Shown here piece by piece: positions 11,866 through 19,583 of a DNA stretch of 64,000 bases. The notes beneath the pieces were generated by a model. That model did no database searches, was not told where the DNA came from, and saw nothing but the letters and a program-made list of their open reading frames with translations. Position 1 is the first letter of the stretch; every line of letters starts with the position of its first letter. The position numbers and the translations under genes are program-made. Source of the stretch: Candidatus Terraquivivens yellowstonensis (GTDB lineage: Archaea; Thermoproteota; Nitrososphaeria_A; Caldarchaeales; Wolframiiraptoraceae); contig JAKCEW010000002.1 in NCBI GenBank assembly GCA_023539445.1, positions 1-64,000 of the forward strand. The letters are read 5' to 3'.

Positions 11866-12300
11866 CTATGGTACGCTGGCCAAATCCTCCCCGTCCTTCG
11901 TGCCCTGCTGGGACGATTTTAGCATGGAAAGCATTTGCTGTATCTGGTTGGGTGTTAGTATGCCGGCTTGTAATAGGTTCACTATGGAGTTGGGGGAGGC
12001 ATAACCAGTAAGCTTGCCGATGTTGCCCTTAATCTGCCTCCACTTTAGGCTAGTGTTCCCGCTCTTGGAGGAGTATAGGACACCAAGAACGTCGGCTACC
12101 TTCACAAACTTTACGTTTCTGATCTGGCCGAGGAAGACCTTAGATACCGCCTCCACATGAATCGTCCCTTCTTGGGGGTCCCTTTCCGGGAAAACCGTGG
12201 GGTCCTCTAGATATTCTTTGGGAATGAATGACGCGCAAGAGTTGCTTATCACAAACCTCCTGAACTTCTCGAGTGTCGTCTTCGTTTCGATCTTTGTCAT
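11866..12300 (-). CDS. Hypothetical protein (144 aa)
   Basis: Open frame with credible composition and no overlapping better frame; no family recognised. Confidence 0.6.
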   Translation of the reverse strand: MTKIETKTTLEKFRRFVISNSCASFIPKEYLEDPTVFPERDPQEGTIHVEAVSKVFLGQIRNVKFVKVADVLGVLYSSKSGNTSLKWRQIKGNIGKLTGYASPNSIVNLLQAGILTPNQIQQMLSMLKSSQQGTKDGEDLASVP

Positions 12301-13108: not shown

Positions 13109-14896
13109 GTGGAAAATACAGACGAGCGCTCCGCGGGAAAGCTTGAGCTGGAGGAGAGGGTAAAATCTGTACCGCACATAAAGGAGGTAATTCTAGAGAA
13201 TTTCATGTCCCATGAATACTCTAGGATACCGCTAAAACCGGGTCTTAACGTCATAATGGGGCCTAACGGTGCTGGAAAATCCTCAATACTTCTCGGGATA
13301 TCCGTCGCCCTCGGCCAGACCTACACGGAGAGGGGTGAACGATTAAGTGACCTCATACGTCGTGGGAAAGATGTGGCTAGGGTCACTGTTGTGTTCAACA
13401 ACAGTGCACATAACGGCAAAAGACCATTCAGAACTATAAACACGGACACAGTATCCATCGCCAGATACCTCAAGAGAAACGGAGACTACTGGCATTACGT
13501 GAACAACAGATTCATGACGAAGGCTGAGGTCGAGCACTTGCTTAAGCAGGTGGGCATAAACCCCAACAACATGCTCATAATAATGCACCAGAATATGATA
13601 GAACAGTTCGTAACAAAAAGCAGCGTTGAAAAGCTCCAGATGGTCGAGGACGCCGTAGGTGCATCGAAGCTTAGGGAGAGGATAATAGATGCCGAGGCCA
13701 AGCTGAACATGTTGCTTACAGAAGAAGCGGGCCTCAAGAAAACTCTGGAGGAAGCAAGGGCGACAGTTGAATATTGGAAGGAAGAGTACGGGAAGCTAGT
13801 AAAGCTCAGAAGGCTTGAGAACCATAGGGTTGAGCTTGAGCGTGAGCTTGCTTGGTCTCAAGTAATAGCTCTAGAGAACGATGTAAAGAGGATTGAGGAT
13901 AAAATATCCTCCCTCATCTTAGAGATTGAGGATCTAAACAAAGAAGCTAAAGAGCACGAGTTAAAAGCTGGAGCTTTACGTGAGGAGATCCGCGGAGCGG
14001 TACACCAATTAAAAGGAGCGGGACCTCAAACATCCGAAGCTTTGGACGATTTGGAAAAAAGGATAGATAGGCTGATAGACGAACTCGTTGACGAAAAGGT
14101 GCAAGAAGGAATTGCAAGGTTCAAGATACGCTTAACAGAATCCGAGATGAGAAAGCTAAAGTCTCAGTTAAGCGAGCTGAAGACGAAGCTTGCCTCTCAG
14201 CTGTCTGAGGCTGAACTGAAAGGGCCTCGTGTCGAGACTAACAGAAAACCAATGGAAATCCAAGAAGATTTGAAGATCTTAGAAGTTCAAATAAACTCTT
14301 TGGGTAGCGTAACGCCCAATGCTGAAGAGATGTACCTCTTAGCGGATGCTAAGTATAGCGAGGTCGAGATGAAGGCCAAGCAGCTCTCTGAGAACATAGA
14401 AAAGGCAAAGGAAGAAGTTGAGCGTAGGAAAGAAGTTTGGAGGGAGTTCCTAAGGAAGCTTATGTCGGAGGTCGAGCCGGCTTACATCCAAATACTAAAA
14501 TCTGTCGATGCGAACGGCAAAATATCTTTACGCAACCTGGAGGATATTGAGAAGGCATCCCTTGACCTTTATGTTGGCTTCAGGGGTGTCGAACCTGTCC
14601 TCCTAGACTCCCACACACAGAGTGGTGGTGAGAGGATAGTAGCGACACTCGCTTTCCTTCTTGCGTTACAGAAGTACGTTAAATCACCATTCAGGGCTGT
14701 TGATGAATTCGACGTTCACTTGGACCCGCTCAATAGGGAGAGAATGGTAAAGATGTTGACGGCAACCGCCAAGGCCGATCCGTACGTCCAGTATATAATA
14801 ATAACGCCGGGTTACATAAACGTGGGCGAGGATGCGAACGTAATCATCGTCCAAAACGTAAGCGGAAAGTCATCCGTAGGTGTGGTAGAAAGGTAA
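13109..14896 (+). CDS. Short SMC-family ATPase, Smc5/Smc6-like, apparently lacking a hinge
   Basis: Walker A IMGPNGAGKSSIL; IIMHQNMIEQFV Q-loop region; signature TQSGGERIVATLAFLLALQ; Walker B/D-loop SPFRAVDEFDVHLDPLNRERM; QYIIITP; about 300 aa of coiled coil between the head halves. Confidence 0.92.
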   Translation: MENTDERSAGKLELEERVKSVPHIKEVILENFMSHEYSRIPLKPGLNVIMGPNGAGKSSILLGISVALGQTYTERGERLSDLIRRGKDVARVTVVFNNSAHNGKRPFRTINTDTVSIARYLKRNGDYWHYVNNRFMTKAEVEHLLKQVGINPNNMLIIMHQNMIEQFVTKSSVEKLQMVEDAVGASKLRERIIDAEAKLNMLLTEEAGLKKTLEEARATVEYWKEEYGKLVKLRRLENHRVELERELAWSQVIALENDVKRIEDKISSLILEIEDLNKEAKEHELKAGALREEIRGAVHQLKGAGPQTSEALDDLEKRIDRLIDELVDEKVQEGIARFKIRLTESEMRKLKSQLSELKTKLASQLSEAELKGPRVETNRKPMEIQEDLKILEVQINSLGSVTPNAEEMYLLADAKYSEVEMKAKQLSENIEKAKEEVERRKEVWREFLRKLMSEVEPAYIQILKSVDANGKISLRNLEDIEKASLDLYVGFRGVEPVLLDSHTQSGGERIVATLAFLLALQKYVKSPFRAVDEFDVHLDPLNRERMVKMLTATAKADPYVQYIIITPGYINVGEDANVIIVQNVSGKSSVGVVER

Positions 14897-14902
14897 TGCG
14901 GT

Positions 14903-15694
14903 ATGTCTCATGAAAGAAGAACTGTAAATAGGGAGGAGCTTGAAAGGATAATAGCGCTCTGCGAATCTATCGAGAAAAGGGGTCTGGACCCGTTCTCGGT
15001 CAATGTGAAGGAACTTCTAATGAAGCTAAGGCGCATATTGGAAGAGCAGAAAGATTTAGAGATAATAATCCTCGATGCTGAGACGCTCTACAAGATAGCG
15101 GTCCTAATATCGCTGCAACAAAAGTGGTTGAAAGAAAGGGCATCATCGCTTTTCATAGATAGTCAGCTCGTATCGCTCAAAATAACCTCTGCCGAACCAA
15201 AGCAGTTGGCTGCGGCGCTCGCTAGGAGCTGGAGACCCATCGTCAGGGCTGAGCAACTTACGCCTTACAGAGTAAGGCAGGGTATGGAATACTTTTTGAT
15301 GTTGCCTCCTAGGGATAGGGCCTACGAGAAGCTTCCGACAGCGCAAGAGGAAGCATTACGCATCCTAAAGGGAGCAGAGTATGCGAAGGATGTAGTGTTG
15401 GAGGATGAAGTGAGAAAGATGCATGAAAGGTGCATTATGGCAGCAGGGAGCGATGGCGAAGTAGATTATTGGTCCATAGTAAGCGCCGACACATTTGAGG
15501 AGACTGTATGGAGGGCCTATGTACTCAGCTTCGTCATCAGCGAGGGATTAGCAGATATAAAGAAAAATCCCCTTACGGGTGAGATAAAGGTAGTGCCTTA
15601 TCCTTCAAAGCGTACGAGAGAGAAGGTAGCCGCATTCGTAATCTCCTTAAAAAGCGGGGAGGTGCCAAAGGCTCTTGGAAGAGAAAAGGAATGA
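14903..15694 (+). CDS. Kleisin-like subunit (ScpA/Nse4-like)
   Basis: N-terminal helices (LDPFSVNVKELLMKLRRIL, LDAETLYKIAVLISLQQKWLKERASSLF) resemble the ScpA N-domain; C-terminal DTFEETVWRAYVLSFVISEGLADIKKNPLTGEIKVVP resembles the Nse4 C-terminal winged helix; 6 bp after the SMC stop. Confidence 0.68.
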   Translation: MSHERRTVNREELERIIALCESIEKRGLDPFSVNVKELLMKLRRILEEQKDLEIIILDAETLYKIAVLISLQQKWLKERASSLFIDSQLVSLKITSAEPKQLAAALARSWRPIVRAEQLTPYRVRQGMEYFLMLPPRDRAYEKLPTAQEEALRILKGAEYAKDVVLEDEVRKMHERCIMAAGSDGEVDYWSIVSADTFEETVWRAYVLSFVISEGLADIKKNPLTGEIKVVPYPSKRTREKVAAFVISLKSGEVPKALGREKE

Positions 15695-16274
15695 GGTCGA
15701 GCGAGCAAGTAAGAAGATAGCAATAGCTGCTAGTATGCTTCTCTTCTCAAGCCATAGGCTTCCAGGCGTCAGGGGCTGGGAGCTACGTAGGAGGTTGGGC
15801 AAAGATTATCTCAAGATAATTGATGCGCTGAATAATAAACTGAACAGCATAGGTCTCAGAGTAAAGATAATGTTCGACCAACCATCGGGCGAACATCCAG
15901 CTCAGGACGACTTTGACAAAGCTAGATTCTTCATAACACTCTCCGAACCGCTCACAGTCGCCGATATAGTGGCCGCAGGTTGGAGCATAGAAGATGTGGC
16001 AATATTGGCTGCTGTGCTCTCTTATATTTTCACGAAGGGTGGTAAGGCTACTGAGAAGGAACTAATGGAGCTTCTAGAGGTAAAGTTCCCAAGATGGAAG
16101 GTGGAGGCAGCCATAGAGCGGTTTATCAGGAAAGGGTACCTTACGAGAATTGAGGATAACATGATAAAGGTTGGATGGAGAACTTTGGCGGAGGTGGATG
16201 AAAAGGAGTTGTTAAAGGCTATAACGGACATCACTCCGTCGCAACCAAAGGAAGATAATAAAGAGAATATCTAG
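15675..16274 (+). CDS. Tandem winged-helix KITE-like protein (Nse3/MAGE-like)
   Basis: WH1 LPGVRGWELRRRLGKDYLKIIDALNNKLNSIGLRVKIM...ARFFITL; WH2 VAILAAVLSYIFTKGGKATEKELMELL...IERFIRKGYLTRIEDNMIKVGWRTLAEVD; overlaps the kleisin-like gene by 20 bp. Confidence 0.68.
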   Translation: MEEKRNEVERASKKIAIAASMLLFSSHRLPGVRGWELRRRLGKDYLKIIDALNNKLNSIGLRVKIMFDQPSGEHPAQDDFDKARFFITLSEPLTVADIVAAGWSIEDVAILAAVLSYIFTKGGKATEKELMELLEVKFPRWKVEAAIERFIRKGYLTRIEDNMIKVGWRTLAEVDEKELLKAITDITPSQPKEDNKENI

Positions 16275-16721: not shown

Positions 16722-19583
16722 TTATTTGAATGCCGAAATCAGCTTTTTCTTCTCCTCCTCGATTATGTATTGTATCAACCTATTCGTTAAACCTCCCTCT
16801 TTCTCTAAGACCCTAGCAGCGTCATTTACAGTAAAACCTTTCCCCGATAGTGCCACGAGTGCTGCCTTTCCATACTTCTCTACTAAAATCGAACTCTTCT
16901 CTATTTCCTTAAGGAGCTCCTTCTCCCTTCTGCTTATAGGCTTGCCCTTTCTAGATATCAGGCCGTAAATATCCTCCACCTCACCTCTCACGAAGCCAAG
17001 TTTTCTTGAGCCACATGCAGGACAAGATGGTCTTTCATCAACATCCTTGATAACCACTTTGTCAAAGTACTGATAACAGTCAGAACATACAAGAACGCCT
17101 GTCTCGTTCATCAATCTGGCCCTAACTGCCATCAATACCAATCTTTCAATTCTATCTGAAGATACTGTTTCGTAGGCCTCTTGGTAGCGTCTGAGCGTGA
17201 GCAACGCTAGAGGTGAGGGAGTTATGGTATCAGATGGCGAGTATATTGTAAGTTCATAATTTCCCATAGATATTGAGCGGAGAAGCTCATAAGCACCGTA
17301 CTCGTCAAAATCTTGGAACAGACAATAGGACATCGCCTCATCATAAACCACAGTACCTTTCAGCACTTCAGCGATCTTCGAGAGGTTGACGTCAAGTATG
17401 CTCGCTTCTTTGCTGACGACGCCCATTTTTCTTGCCACATGAACTAGCCTCCTCCTGAATAGCGTCGACCCTTCTATAGCTTTTCTTAAGACCTCTCCGA
17501 AGGCCCCTTCGGATAAAATCTTTAAGGCCTCGAGTACGAGCTCTGGATAAACGTGCTTTGACCTTATGACAATTCTGTAAGGGTCTTGCTGAACGGCGAT
17601 TGGCATTCCAATCTTTTCGGATATTAAGAACGAAATAACCTTGGCCAAAGTCCTGTTTATTCTAAGCCCTCCGTGTATGTGTATCACCGTATAGTCCCCT
17701 GCCTTTTCCACAACGATCCTCTTGTTCGTAGGCACGGGTATCCCTGAGTTGATGTGCGCCCTAACCTCAGACATACTCCTTGAGATGACCTCCTCCGAAA
17801 CGCCGTATCTCTTAGCTATATCGGTGCAGATGACATCATGCGGCTCGCCTCCGCGAAGACGTTCCTCGTACTCTGCCCTTAGGCTACCGACCTCTTCTGC
17901 AACCTCGTATGGAACCGGTATCTCGTCGCCTACCCACGAAGGTACGGCACCTTCATATTCATCCAACTTCCTGACGTAAATCTTCTCACCGAGTGTGCTG
18001 AGAATCTCCCATGCCTTACCTAGCAGTATGAACCTCGTCCCAGGTTCACCATACTCAGCGACGAACTCTTCATCCAATATACCTACAGGCTCTCCCGTGC
18101 TTTCTTGAATAACTAAGTACTGTCTCTCCTCGGGTATCATGGAAAGGTTTCCGAAATAGTAATCATAAAGTGGCTTAGAATTGATAGGTTTCCAGAAATA
18201 ACCATCGTCGGTAAGCACACAAATATTCAATCCCCTCATATGCTCAAGGACCCTTAGTAGCGTGTGCCTGTCAAGTTCTGAGAAGCTGTATGCCCGCCTG
18301 AACATTCTCAAAGCGTCTTCGATATTAACACGGCCGTACTCTATCAGGAGTCCGGCCAGTTGGTGCATTAAAACATCGAGGGAGTTCATGGGTATTCTGA
18401 CATCTTCCAGCCTCTCCTCCAACGCTCTCTTGGCTATGACTATGGACTCGAGAGCATCATCCGAATCCATAACCAGTATGACGCCTTTCGCTATCTTCCC
18501 TATGCTGTGACCGCTCCTGCCGACCCTTTGTATGAGCCTCGTCACTTCTCTGGGCGAGTTGTACTGTATGCAGAGGTCTATCCTGCCCACGTCTATGCCG
18601 AGTTCCAAAGATGATGTGCAGACTATGCCAAGTAGCGTACCGGCCTTTAAGCCCTGTTCGGTTGATATCCTTGCGGACTTTGCTAGTGAGCCGTGATGTA
18701 TGCCCACGCTGAAGCTCTCGTCCCATGCCCTAAACCTGTTCGTCAATATTTCTGCCAAAGGTCTTGTATTCGTGAATATCAGCGTCGAACCATGCGATTC
18801 TACGAGTCTCCTTATCGTCCTAAGCCTAGATGCTACATCTGGCATAATGGCGAGTTCCTCGGCCAGTACGACGTCTTCATCTTCCGGCACAGGATAGAGG
18901 ACGTCTATTTTCATACCCTTGGCTACGGGAACCCTTACGATCTCGCAATCCCTTCCTGGCCCGACTAAGAATTTTGCTATGGTCTCAGGACTGCCGATTG
19001 TGGCTGATAGGCCAATCCTCTGGAACTCGGAACCAACTATCTCCAACAACCTTTCAAGTGCTATGGAGAGTTGCGCGCCTCTCTTATCTGTGGCAAGTTC
19101 GTGCACTTCGTCAACGATGACCCATTTTATACCTTTTAAATGCTTTCTGAGAACCTTTCCGCATAGGATTGCTTGGAGCGTCTCAGGGGTTGTTATCAGT
19201 ATATCTGGAGGTATGAGGGTTTGTGTCCTTCTCTCCGCAACCGCAGTATCTCCGTGCCTAACGGATACTTTGATATCCAGTCTCTTTGCCCACCAGTCAA
19301 ACCTTTCCAACATGTCCCTATTGAGTGCGCGAAGCGGCGTTATGTAGAGCGCCTTTATTCCTGGAAGTCCAGGATTTTGCAGTAAATTGCTAAGTATAGG
19401 TAGGAGGGCTGCCTCTGTCTTTCCAGTACCAGTCGGTGCCATTAGCAACAGGTTTTTACCCTCCAGTATCTTCGGTATGCTTTCAATCTGGGGTGGAGTT
19501 AACTCTCCGAACCTTTCGACGAAAGCTGTCCTGACAGGTTTCGCCAATAGTTCCAACACGTCCTCGCTTGTTAGGTCACCCAC
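16722..19583 (-). CDS. lhr: Lhr-type large superfamily 2 helicase
   Basis: LLMAPTGTGKTEAALLPIL, IVDEVHEL, GLSATIG, STLIFTNTRPLAE, QRVGRSGHS; about 950 aa with C-terminal zinc motif CSDCYQYFDKVVIKDVDERPSCPACG. Confidence 0.92.
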   Translation of the reverse strand: MGDLTSEDVLELLAKPVRTAFVERFGELTPPQIESIPKILEGKNLLLMAPTGTGKTEAALLPILSNLLQNPGLPGIKALYITPLRALNRDMLERFDWWAKRLDIKVSVRHGDTAVAERRTQTLIPPDILITTPETLQAILCGKVLRKHLKGIKWVIVDEVHELATDKRGAQLSIALERLLEIVGSEFQRIGLSATIGSPETIAKFLVGPGRDCEIVRVPVAKGMKIDVLYPVPEDEDVVLAEELAIMPDVASRLRTIRRLVESHGSTLIFTNTRPLAEILTNRFRAWDESFSVGIHHGSLAKSARISTEQGLKAGTLLGIVCTSSLELGIDVGRIDLCIQYNSPREVTRLIQRVGRSGHSIGKIAKGVILVMDSDDALESIVIAKRALEERLEDVRIPMNSLDVLMHQLAGLLIEYGRVNIEDALRMFRRAYSFSELDRHTLLRVLEHMRGLNICVLTDDGYFWKPINSKPLYDYYFGNLSMIPEERQYLVIQESTGEPVGILDEEFVAEYGEPGTRFILLGKAWEILSTLGEKIYVRKLDEYEGAVPSWVGDEIPVPYEVAEEVGSLRAEYEERLRGGEPHDVICTDIAKRYGVSEEVISRSMSEVRAHINSGIPVPTNKRIVVEKAGDYTVIHIHGGLRINRTLAKVISFLISEKIGMPIAVQQDPYRIVIRSKHVYPELVLEALKILSEGAFGEVLRKAIEGSTLFRRRLVHVARKMGVVSKEASILDVNLSKIAEVLKGTVVYDEAMSYCLFQDFDEYGAYELLRSISMGNYELTIYSPSDTITPSPLALLTLRRYQEAYETVSSDRIERLVLMAVRARLMNETGVLVCSDCYQYFDKVVIKDVDERPSCPACGSRKLGFVRGEVEDIYGLISRKGKPISRREKELLKEIEKSSILVEKYGKAALVALSGKGFTVNDAARVLEKEGGLTNRLIQYIIEEEKKKLISAFK

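Follow-up and report, generated by a model that had tools for sequence, protein, structure and literature searches.

The window analysed here, a stretch of 64,000 nucleotides from Candidatus Terraquivivens yellowstonensis, encodes a short SMC ATPase of the Smc5/6 type in which, as sequence analysis and structure prediction confirm, neither a hinge domain nor a zinc hook is recognisable. The two genes downstream probably encode a kleisin of the Nse4 type and a KITE protein of the MAGE/Nse1 type, an assignment supported by profile searches. Most likely, the complex would serve DNA repair as a clamp on DNA that is gated by ATP, its ATPases pairing through head engagement and kleisin/KITE and not through a hinge. 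The coordinates of genes, motifs and structural segments are collected in Table 1.

Table 1. Genes and features of the hinge-less SMC locus (positions in the window; residues are those of the respective protein)
Feature	Position	Strand	Basis
Hinge-less Smc5/6-type SMC ATPase, 595 aa	13109..14896	+	Pfam SMC_N 2.3e-39; PDB profile search; tree
Walker A GPNGAGKSS, residues 51-59	13259..13285	+	Alignment of 35 orthologues
N-terminal arm, predicted single continuous helix, residues 186-303	13664..14017	+	AlphaFold2
N-side joint-like stretch, residues 219-250	13763..13858	+	Conservation 0.60; 5xei match; boundaries are our own reading
Predicted apical turn AGPQT, residues 304-308, where hinge or hook would be expected	14018..14032	+	AlphaFold2; lowest conservation, 0.23
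Distal C-terminal arm, predicted helix, residues 309-371	14033..14221	+	AlphaFold2
C-side joint-like stretch, residues 372-418	14222..14362	+	Conservation 0.57; two helix breaks in the model; boundaries are our own reading
ABC signature SGGER, residues 505-509	14621..14635	+	Alignment of 35 orthologues
Walker B and D-loop PFRAVDEFDVHLDP, residues 527-540	14687..14728	+	Alignment of 35 orthologues
Nse4-like kleisin, 263 aa	14903..15694	+	PDB profile search; Foldseek; Nse4_C
Kleisin C-terminal winged-helix region, residues 163-232	15389..15598	+	Nse4 match region; AlphaFold2
MAGE/Nse1-like KITE, 199 aa, TTG start	15675..16274	+	Pfam MAGE 2e-5; PDB profile search
Lhr-like helicase, 953 aa, convergent neighbour, possible partner	16722..19583	-	NCBIfam PRK13767 6.3e-158, below its cut-off

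Both ends of the ATPase are SMC head halves (Pfam SMC_N), separated by a linker of about 279 residues (186-464), and the frame opens with a GTG codon behind a GGGAGGAG site. Across 35 orthologues the Walker A lysine and the SGGE signature are invariant, as are D532, E533, H537, D539 and P540. One could suppose that so short a protein is what a frameshift, a truncation or faulty assembly has left of a longer SMC, and the preliminary description had itself named a frameshift relative to longer orthologues as a finding that would speak against it. We regard this explanation as practically eliminated: it is refuted by 54 intact orthologues of about 556-681 aa having the same architecture. Whole-genome searches of two phyla detected the family at one copy per genome: 93 of 200 genomes were positive in the window's phylum, 21 of 28 in that of a Hadarchaeum. 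In none of these 114 positive genomes does an open frame exceed 762 aa, a length that counts sequence ahead of the start codon. One of the loci, L061, is named Candidatus Hodarchaeaceae, an Asgard lineage at NCBI; its genome surfaced in the search of the Hadarchaeum phylum, the label is probably misleading, and an Asgard homologue is not claimed.

The preliminary description held that the protein has neither hinge nor zinc hook, and that its polypeptide turns near HQLKGAGPQTSEAL (about 14000-14040) between stretches of heptad-like coiled coil. All of this was borne out, the coiled coil least clearly in the distal C-terminal arm. The AlphaFold2 model of the monomer (35 sequences; mean pLDDT 84.8; pTM 0.59) consists of a helix, a turn that falls inside HQLKGAGPQTSEAL, and a return arm, with neither a globular insertion nor a compact hinge predicted in the central segment. 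The pLDDT values are about 87-95 over most of both arms and 57 at the turn, and beyond residue 371 the return arm is predicted as a loop (372-380), a helix (381-397), a second loop (398-404) and a final helix (405-464). Heptad-type periodicity exceeds that of shuffled sequences in the N-terminal arm (p=0.001) and in the proximal C-terminal arm (p=0.0005); for the distal C-terminal arm the excess is borderline (p=0.05). The 595 residues include no cysteine and therefore no zinc hook; CxxC is likewise absent from all 35 family members scanned, whereas the Rad50-type proteins of the same genomes, which served as a control, carry CPxC. The Pfam hinge and zinc-hook models gave no match to the window ATPase at E <= 1 and do not occur among the 25 commonest families matched by the 35 members. 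Both devices are missing across the whole sampled family.

A hinge supplied in trans was also sought, but the SMC_hinge model matched nothing in the genome of the window (E <= 1e-3) and nothing in two relatives (E <= 1). Such a search could overlook a free hinge that is divergent, because the genome's canonical hinge itself scores only 0.016.

The share of the commonest residue is 0.74 and 0.64 in the two heads, 0.57-0.60 in the joint-like stretches and lowest, 0.23, at the apex, while the length of the distal hairpin ranges from 110 to 206 residues across the family. We read residues 219-250 and 372-418 as the SMC joint from their conservation, motif resemblance and match to 5xei, a Pyrococcus Smc crystal fragment of head, coiled coil and joint. 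This hinge-free construct is the top Foldseek match of the ATPase model (8e-25), Smc5/6 heads coming next; the TM-scores are modest and the rmsd high, as expected with long flexible arms. Taken together, the 5xei match and the conservation profile make the natural ATPase look like an SMC cut shortly past its joint. It might be argued that the apical hairpins or joints of two such ATPases zip together in place of a hinge, giving a closed mini-ring capable of extrusion. The head motifs, the kleisin and the KITE are indeed all present and the joint-like stretches well conserved, but we consider this unlikely: neither hinge nor hook was found, and an apex that varies in length and is less conserved than any other region is unlikely to form a conserved dimer interface.

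The Smc5/6-like identity, proposed already in the preliminary description, is upheld by profile ranking and by phylogeny. Profiles of ATPase, kleisin and KITE were searched separately against all PDB sequences. That of the ATPase places yeast Smc5 (1.2e-63) and Smc6 (6.9e-62) on top, with Pyrococcus Smc 5xei (4.7e-49), Smc2 (8.5e-43) and Rad50 (1e-15) lower down. In a maximum-likelihood tree of head domains (27 taxa, 350 columns, LG+F+G4, ultrafast bootstrap) the hinge-less proteins form a clade with support of 96 and group with yeast Smc5 and Smc6 at 99, the canonical archaeal Smc clade having 84; the eukaryotic taxa in this tree are yeast Smc5 and Smc6 only, both as partial sequences taken from printed alignments, with Smc1-4 left out.

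The same genome also has a canonical Smc of 1154 aa at another locus, with a weak hinge match at residues 525-625 and with ScpB two genes beyond (E 3.3e-38). As a control, this protein was subjected to the same PDB search, which put archaeal and bacterial Smc first and human Smc5 only at 4e-9; Smc6 is absent among the best 60 matches listed. The window ATPase was rejected as a canonical Smc-ScpAB protein: native Smc has a hinge, whereas the ATPase has none, and the genome's own Smc and ScpB lie elsewhere. Canonical-type SMCs of only 753-764 aa were seen at three loci (L091, L093 and L098; Methanodesulfokora, Hadesarchaea and a Thermoproteota genome). By eye, at least the one from Methanodesulfokora keeps a hinge-like segment, so hinge loss and arm shortening are two separate events.

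The partner genes fit this placement, and the suggestion that the ATPase has its own kleisin and KITE was justified. The kleisin gene starts 6 nt past the ATPase stop codon, and the KITE gene overlaps it by 20 nt, so the three are presumably carried on one transcript. The kleisin profile finds human EID3 (9.5e-5) and yeast Nse4 (2.1e-4) first and ScpA at 0.17, while Nse4_C is matched by 17 of 36 members. Its AlphaFold2 model (mean pLDDT 79) retrieves Nse4 first in Foldseek (9.1e-4), then the winged helices of ScpA-C and Scc1 at 2.4-3.2 Angstrom, a fold which, together with the SMC-kleisin-KITE composition, is shared with Smc-ScpA-ScpB. For the KITE, a MAGE protein (0.0079) and human NSE1 (0.027) are the top two PDB matches, and among 38 members the MAGE model matches 17 (best 2e-5) and the Nse1 model 15 (best 1.2e-4). 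Taken singly, the kleisin and KITE scores are modest; what makes the argument for the Smc5/6 type strong is that each of the three neighbouring genes leads to its own counterpart in Smc5/6. The eukaryotic core of Smc5/6, Nse4 and Nse1/Nse3 thus provides the best PDB sequence matches for all three proteins, but the archaeal operon has a single gene each for SMC and KITE, its SMC lacks a hinge and has much shorter arms, and no equivalent of Nse2, Nse5 or Nse6 was noticed in it. Where Smc5/6 is a hinge-mediated heterodimer of subunits of about 1,100 residues, a single 595-residue protein is encoded here, and the complex is therefore a variant, not a standard member.

The gene set is stable. In about 50 archaeal loci the three genes stand side by side, the kleisin lying directly 3' of the ATPase in 52 and the KITE next in about 49, and both ATPase and kleisin are present in 91 of the 94 genomes having either one (200-genome sample). 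Even in families where the ATPase gene is relocated, the set still co-occurs. Wadjet, too, includes SMC, kleisin and KITE genes. This common gene set, with a PADLOC match of Lamassu LmuB along the ATPase (1.3e-24), may suggest a defence against plasmids or phages like that of Wadjet or Lamassu. We give that a slim chance: the Smc5/6 match is far stronger than the one to LmuB, the PADLOC models of partner proteins (JetA, JetB, JetD, LmuA, LmuC) were not matched, the kleisin has no PADLOC match and the KITE one that is weak and unrelated, and the genes occur in single copy and in a context conserved across phyla.

Part of that context is the gene for the Lhr-like helicase, which is convergent and downstream in 27 of the 41 loci with enough sequence, including records of Hadesarchaea, Methanodesulfokora and Geothermarchaeota. 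It still adjoins the KITE gene where the ATPase sits elsewhere (L078 and L080; L079 by position). This conserved gene order suggests a functional link. On the other side, divergent from the ATPase, is a gene for a 144-aa protein without a Pfam family (11866-12300, minus strand); 23 of the closer loci have it at this divergent upstream place, the distant groups never. Elsewhere in the same genome, contig C11 (L076:1741-4488, plus strand) encodes a 915-aa ABCE1/Rli1-like protein with, as judged by eye, an apparent intein-like insertion after the first iron-sulfur cysteine motif.

A 2024 preprint is reportedly concerned with the prokaryotic roots of SMC complexes. For a conserved operon like this one, in which a hinge-less ATPase of the Smc5/6 type is encoded next to kleisin and KITE partners of the Nse4 and MAGE/Nse1 kinds, and for the lack of a hinge in this ATPase family, we found no description, although an earlier one is possible. 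An archaeal clade of SMC5/6-related SMCs has already been published (Yoshinaga and Inagaki 2021, cited in PMC9389158), and the window ATPase, having the same phylogenetic position, is probably one of its members; PMC9389158 mentions neither hinge loss nor a kleisin/KITE operon for this clade. Hinge-less SMC homologues have been reported in marine Actinomycetes (bacterial metagenome sequences; PMC12153180). As described in the available part of that paper, where partner genes are not mentioned, they resemble the window ATPase: head and coiled coil are of the SMC type, while hinge and CxxC are both absent.

The preliminary description had also referred to reports of hinge-less SMC-related proteins in archaea, and on this point it needs a correction. 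The ASRPs (coalescin, Sph) are, like the window ATPase, short archaeal SMC-superfamily ATPases, but they mostly have a zinc hook and have no consensus flanking genes (PMC9389158); a protein that lacks both hinge and hook therefore finds no precedent in them. One may still ask whether the ATPase acts in the manner of Rad50 or the ASRPs, as a tether or as a nucleoid protein, with kleisin and KITE being only regulatory; its size is similar to that of coalescin (about 68 kDa, PMC9764264), and it gives a weak match to the NCBIfam ASRP model (2.5e-20). We find this quite improbable. Membership in the ASRPs is rejected by the score (72.6 bits against a cut-off of 300) and by the missing hook, and Rad50 identity by the lack of a CxxC hook in the 35 family members scanned; moreover, Rad50 ranks far below Smc5/6 in the PDB search (1e-15 versus 1e-63), and a kleisin almost always accompanies the ATPase.

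In the SMC complexes known so far, one SMC is bound at its neck by the N-domain of the kleisin and the other at its cap by the kleisin's winged helix; ATP joins the heads, and the KITEs are attached to the kleisin. The corresponding subunits of Smc5/6 enclose DNA as a clamp (PMC9191643, abstract). Every part needed for such a clamp is encoded in the window. With moderate confidence we favour a three-subunit SMC-kleisin-KITE clamp of the Smc5/6 type, built on a hinge-less SMC and acting at repair or replication intermediates. Its SMC subunit would keep head, neck, proximal coiled coil and joint, followed by no more than a short distal hairpin. We suppose that two identical ATPases pair via ATP sandwiched between their heads, that one Nse4-like kleisin bridges neck and cap and carries a KITE dimer, and that joint-to-joint contact of the arms probably adds to the pairing. 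In the ATP-bound state, heads, KITE and kleisin would close on DNA as a clamp; hydrolysis would open the heads and release it. Since no large closed SMC ring can form without a hinge, the complex is not expected to extrude loops processively by means of long arms.

The least certain step of this scheme is its place in the cell. Its kinship with Smc5/6, the presence of a canonical Smc and ScpB at another locus and the neighbouring helicase gene suggest that the clamp may keep hold of DNA at intermediates of repair or replication, perhaps together with the Lhr-like helicase, while chromosome organisation would be left to the hinged Smc-ScpB of the same cell.

Current SMC models assign to the hinge a part in dimerisation, in DNA entry or in obstacle bypass, and to the long arms the extrusion step. 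A compact Smc5/6 relative without a hinge in many archaea is thus a natural test of the hinge's purpose, and a natural hinge-less complex of the Smc5/6 type would separate head clamping from the functions that depend on arms and ring. The system is small, comes from thermophiles and has its ATPase motifs, kleisin and KITE intact. A single SMC gene about equally related to Smc5 and Smc6 bears on the origin of Smc5/6 by duplication, as does, for the same history, a single KITE related both to MAGE/Nse3 and to Nse1. A bolder reading, which we find conceivable but would sooner doubt than accept, is that this archaeal one-SMC, one-KITE system is a sister or relic of the stock that gave eukaryotic Smc5/6, and that it works as a pure ATP-driven clamp coupled to Lhr, with no hinge, large ring or extrusion. 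If this is true, a complete SMC-kleisin-KITE machine would be able to act without a hinge, without a large ring and without loop extrusion.
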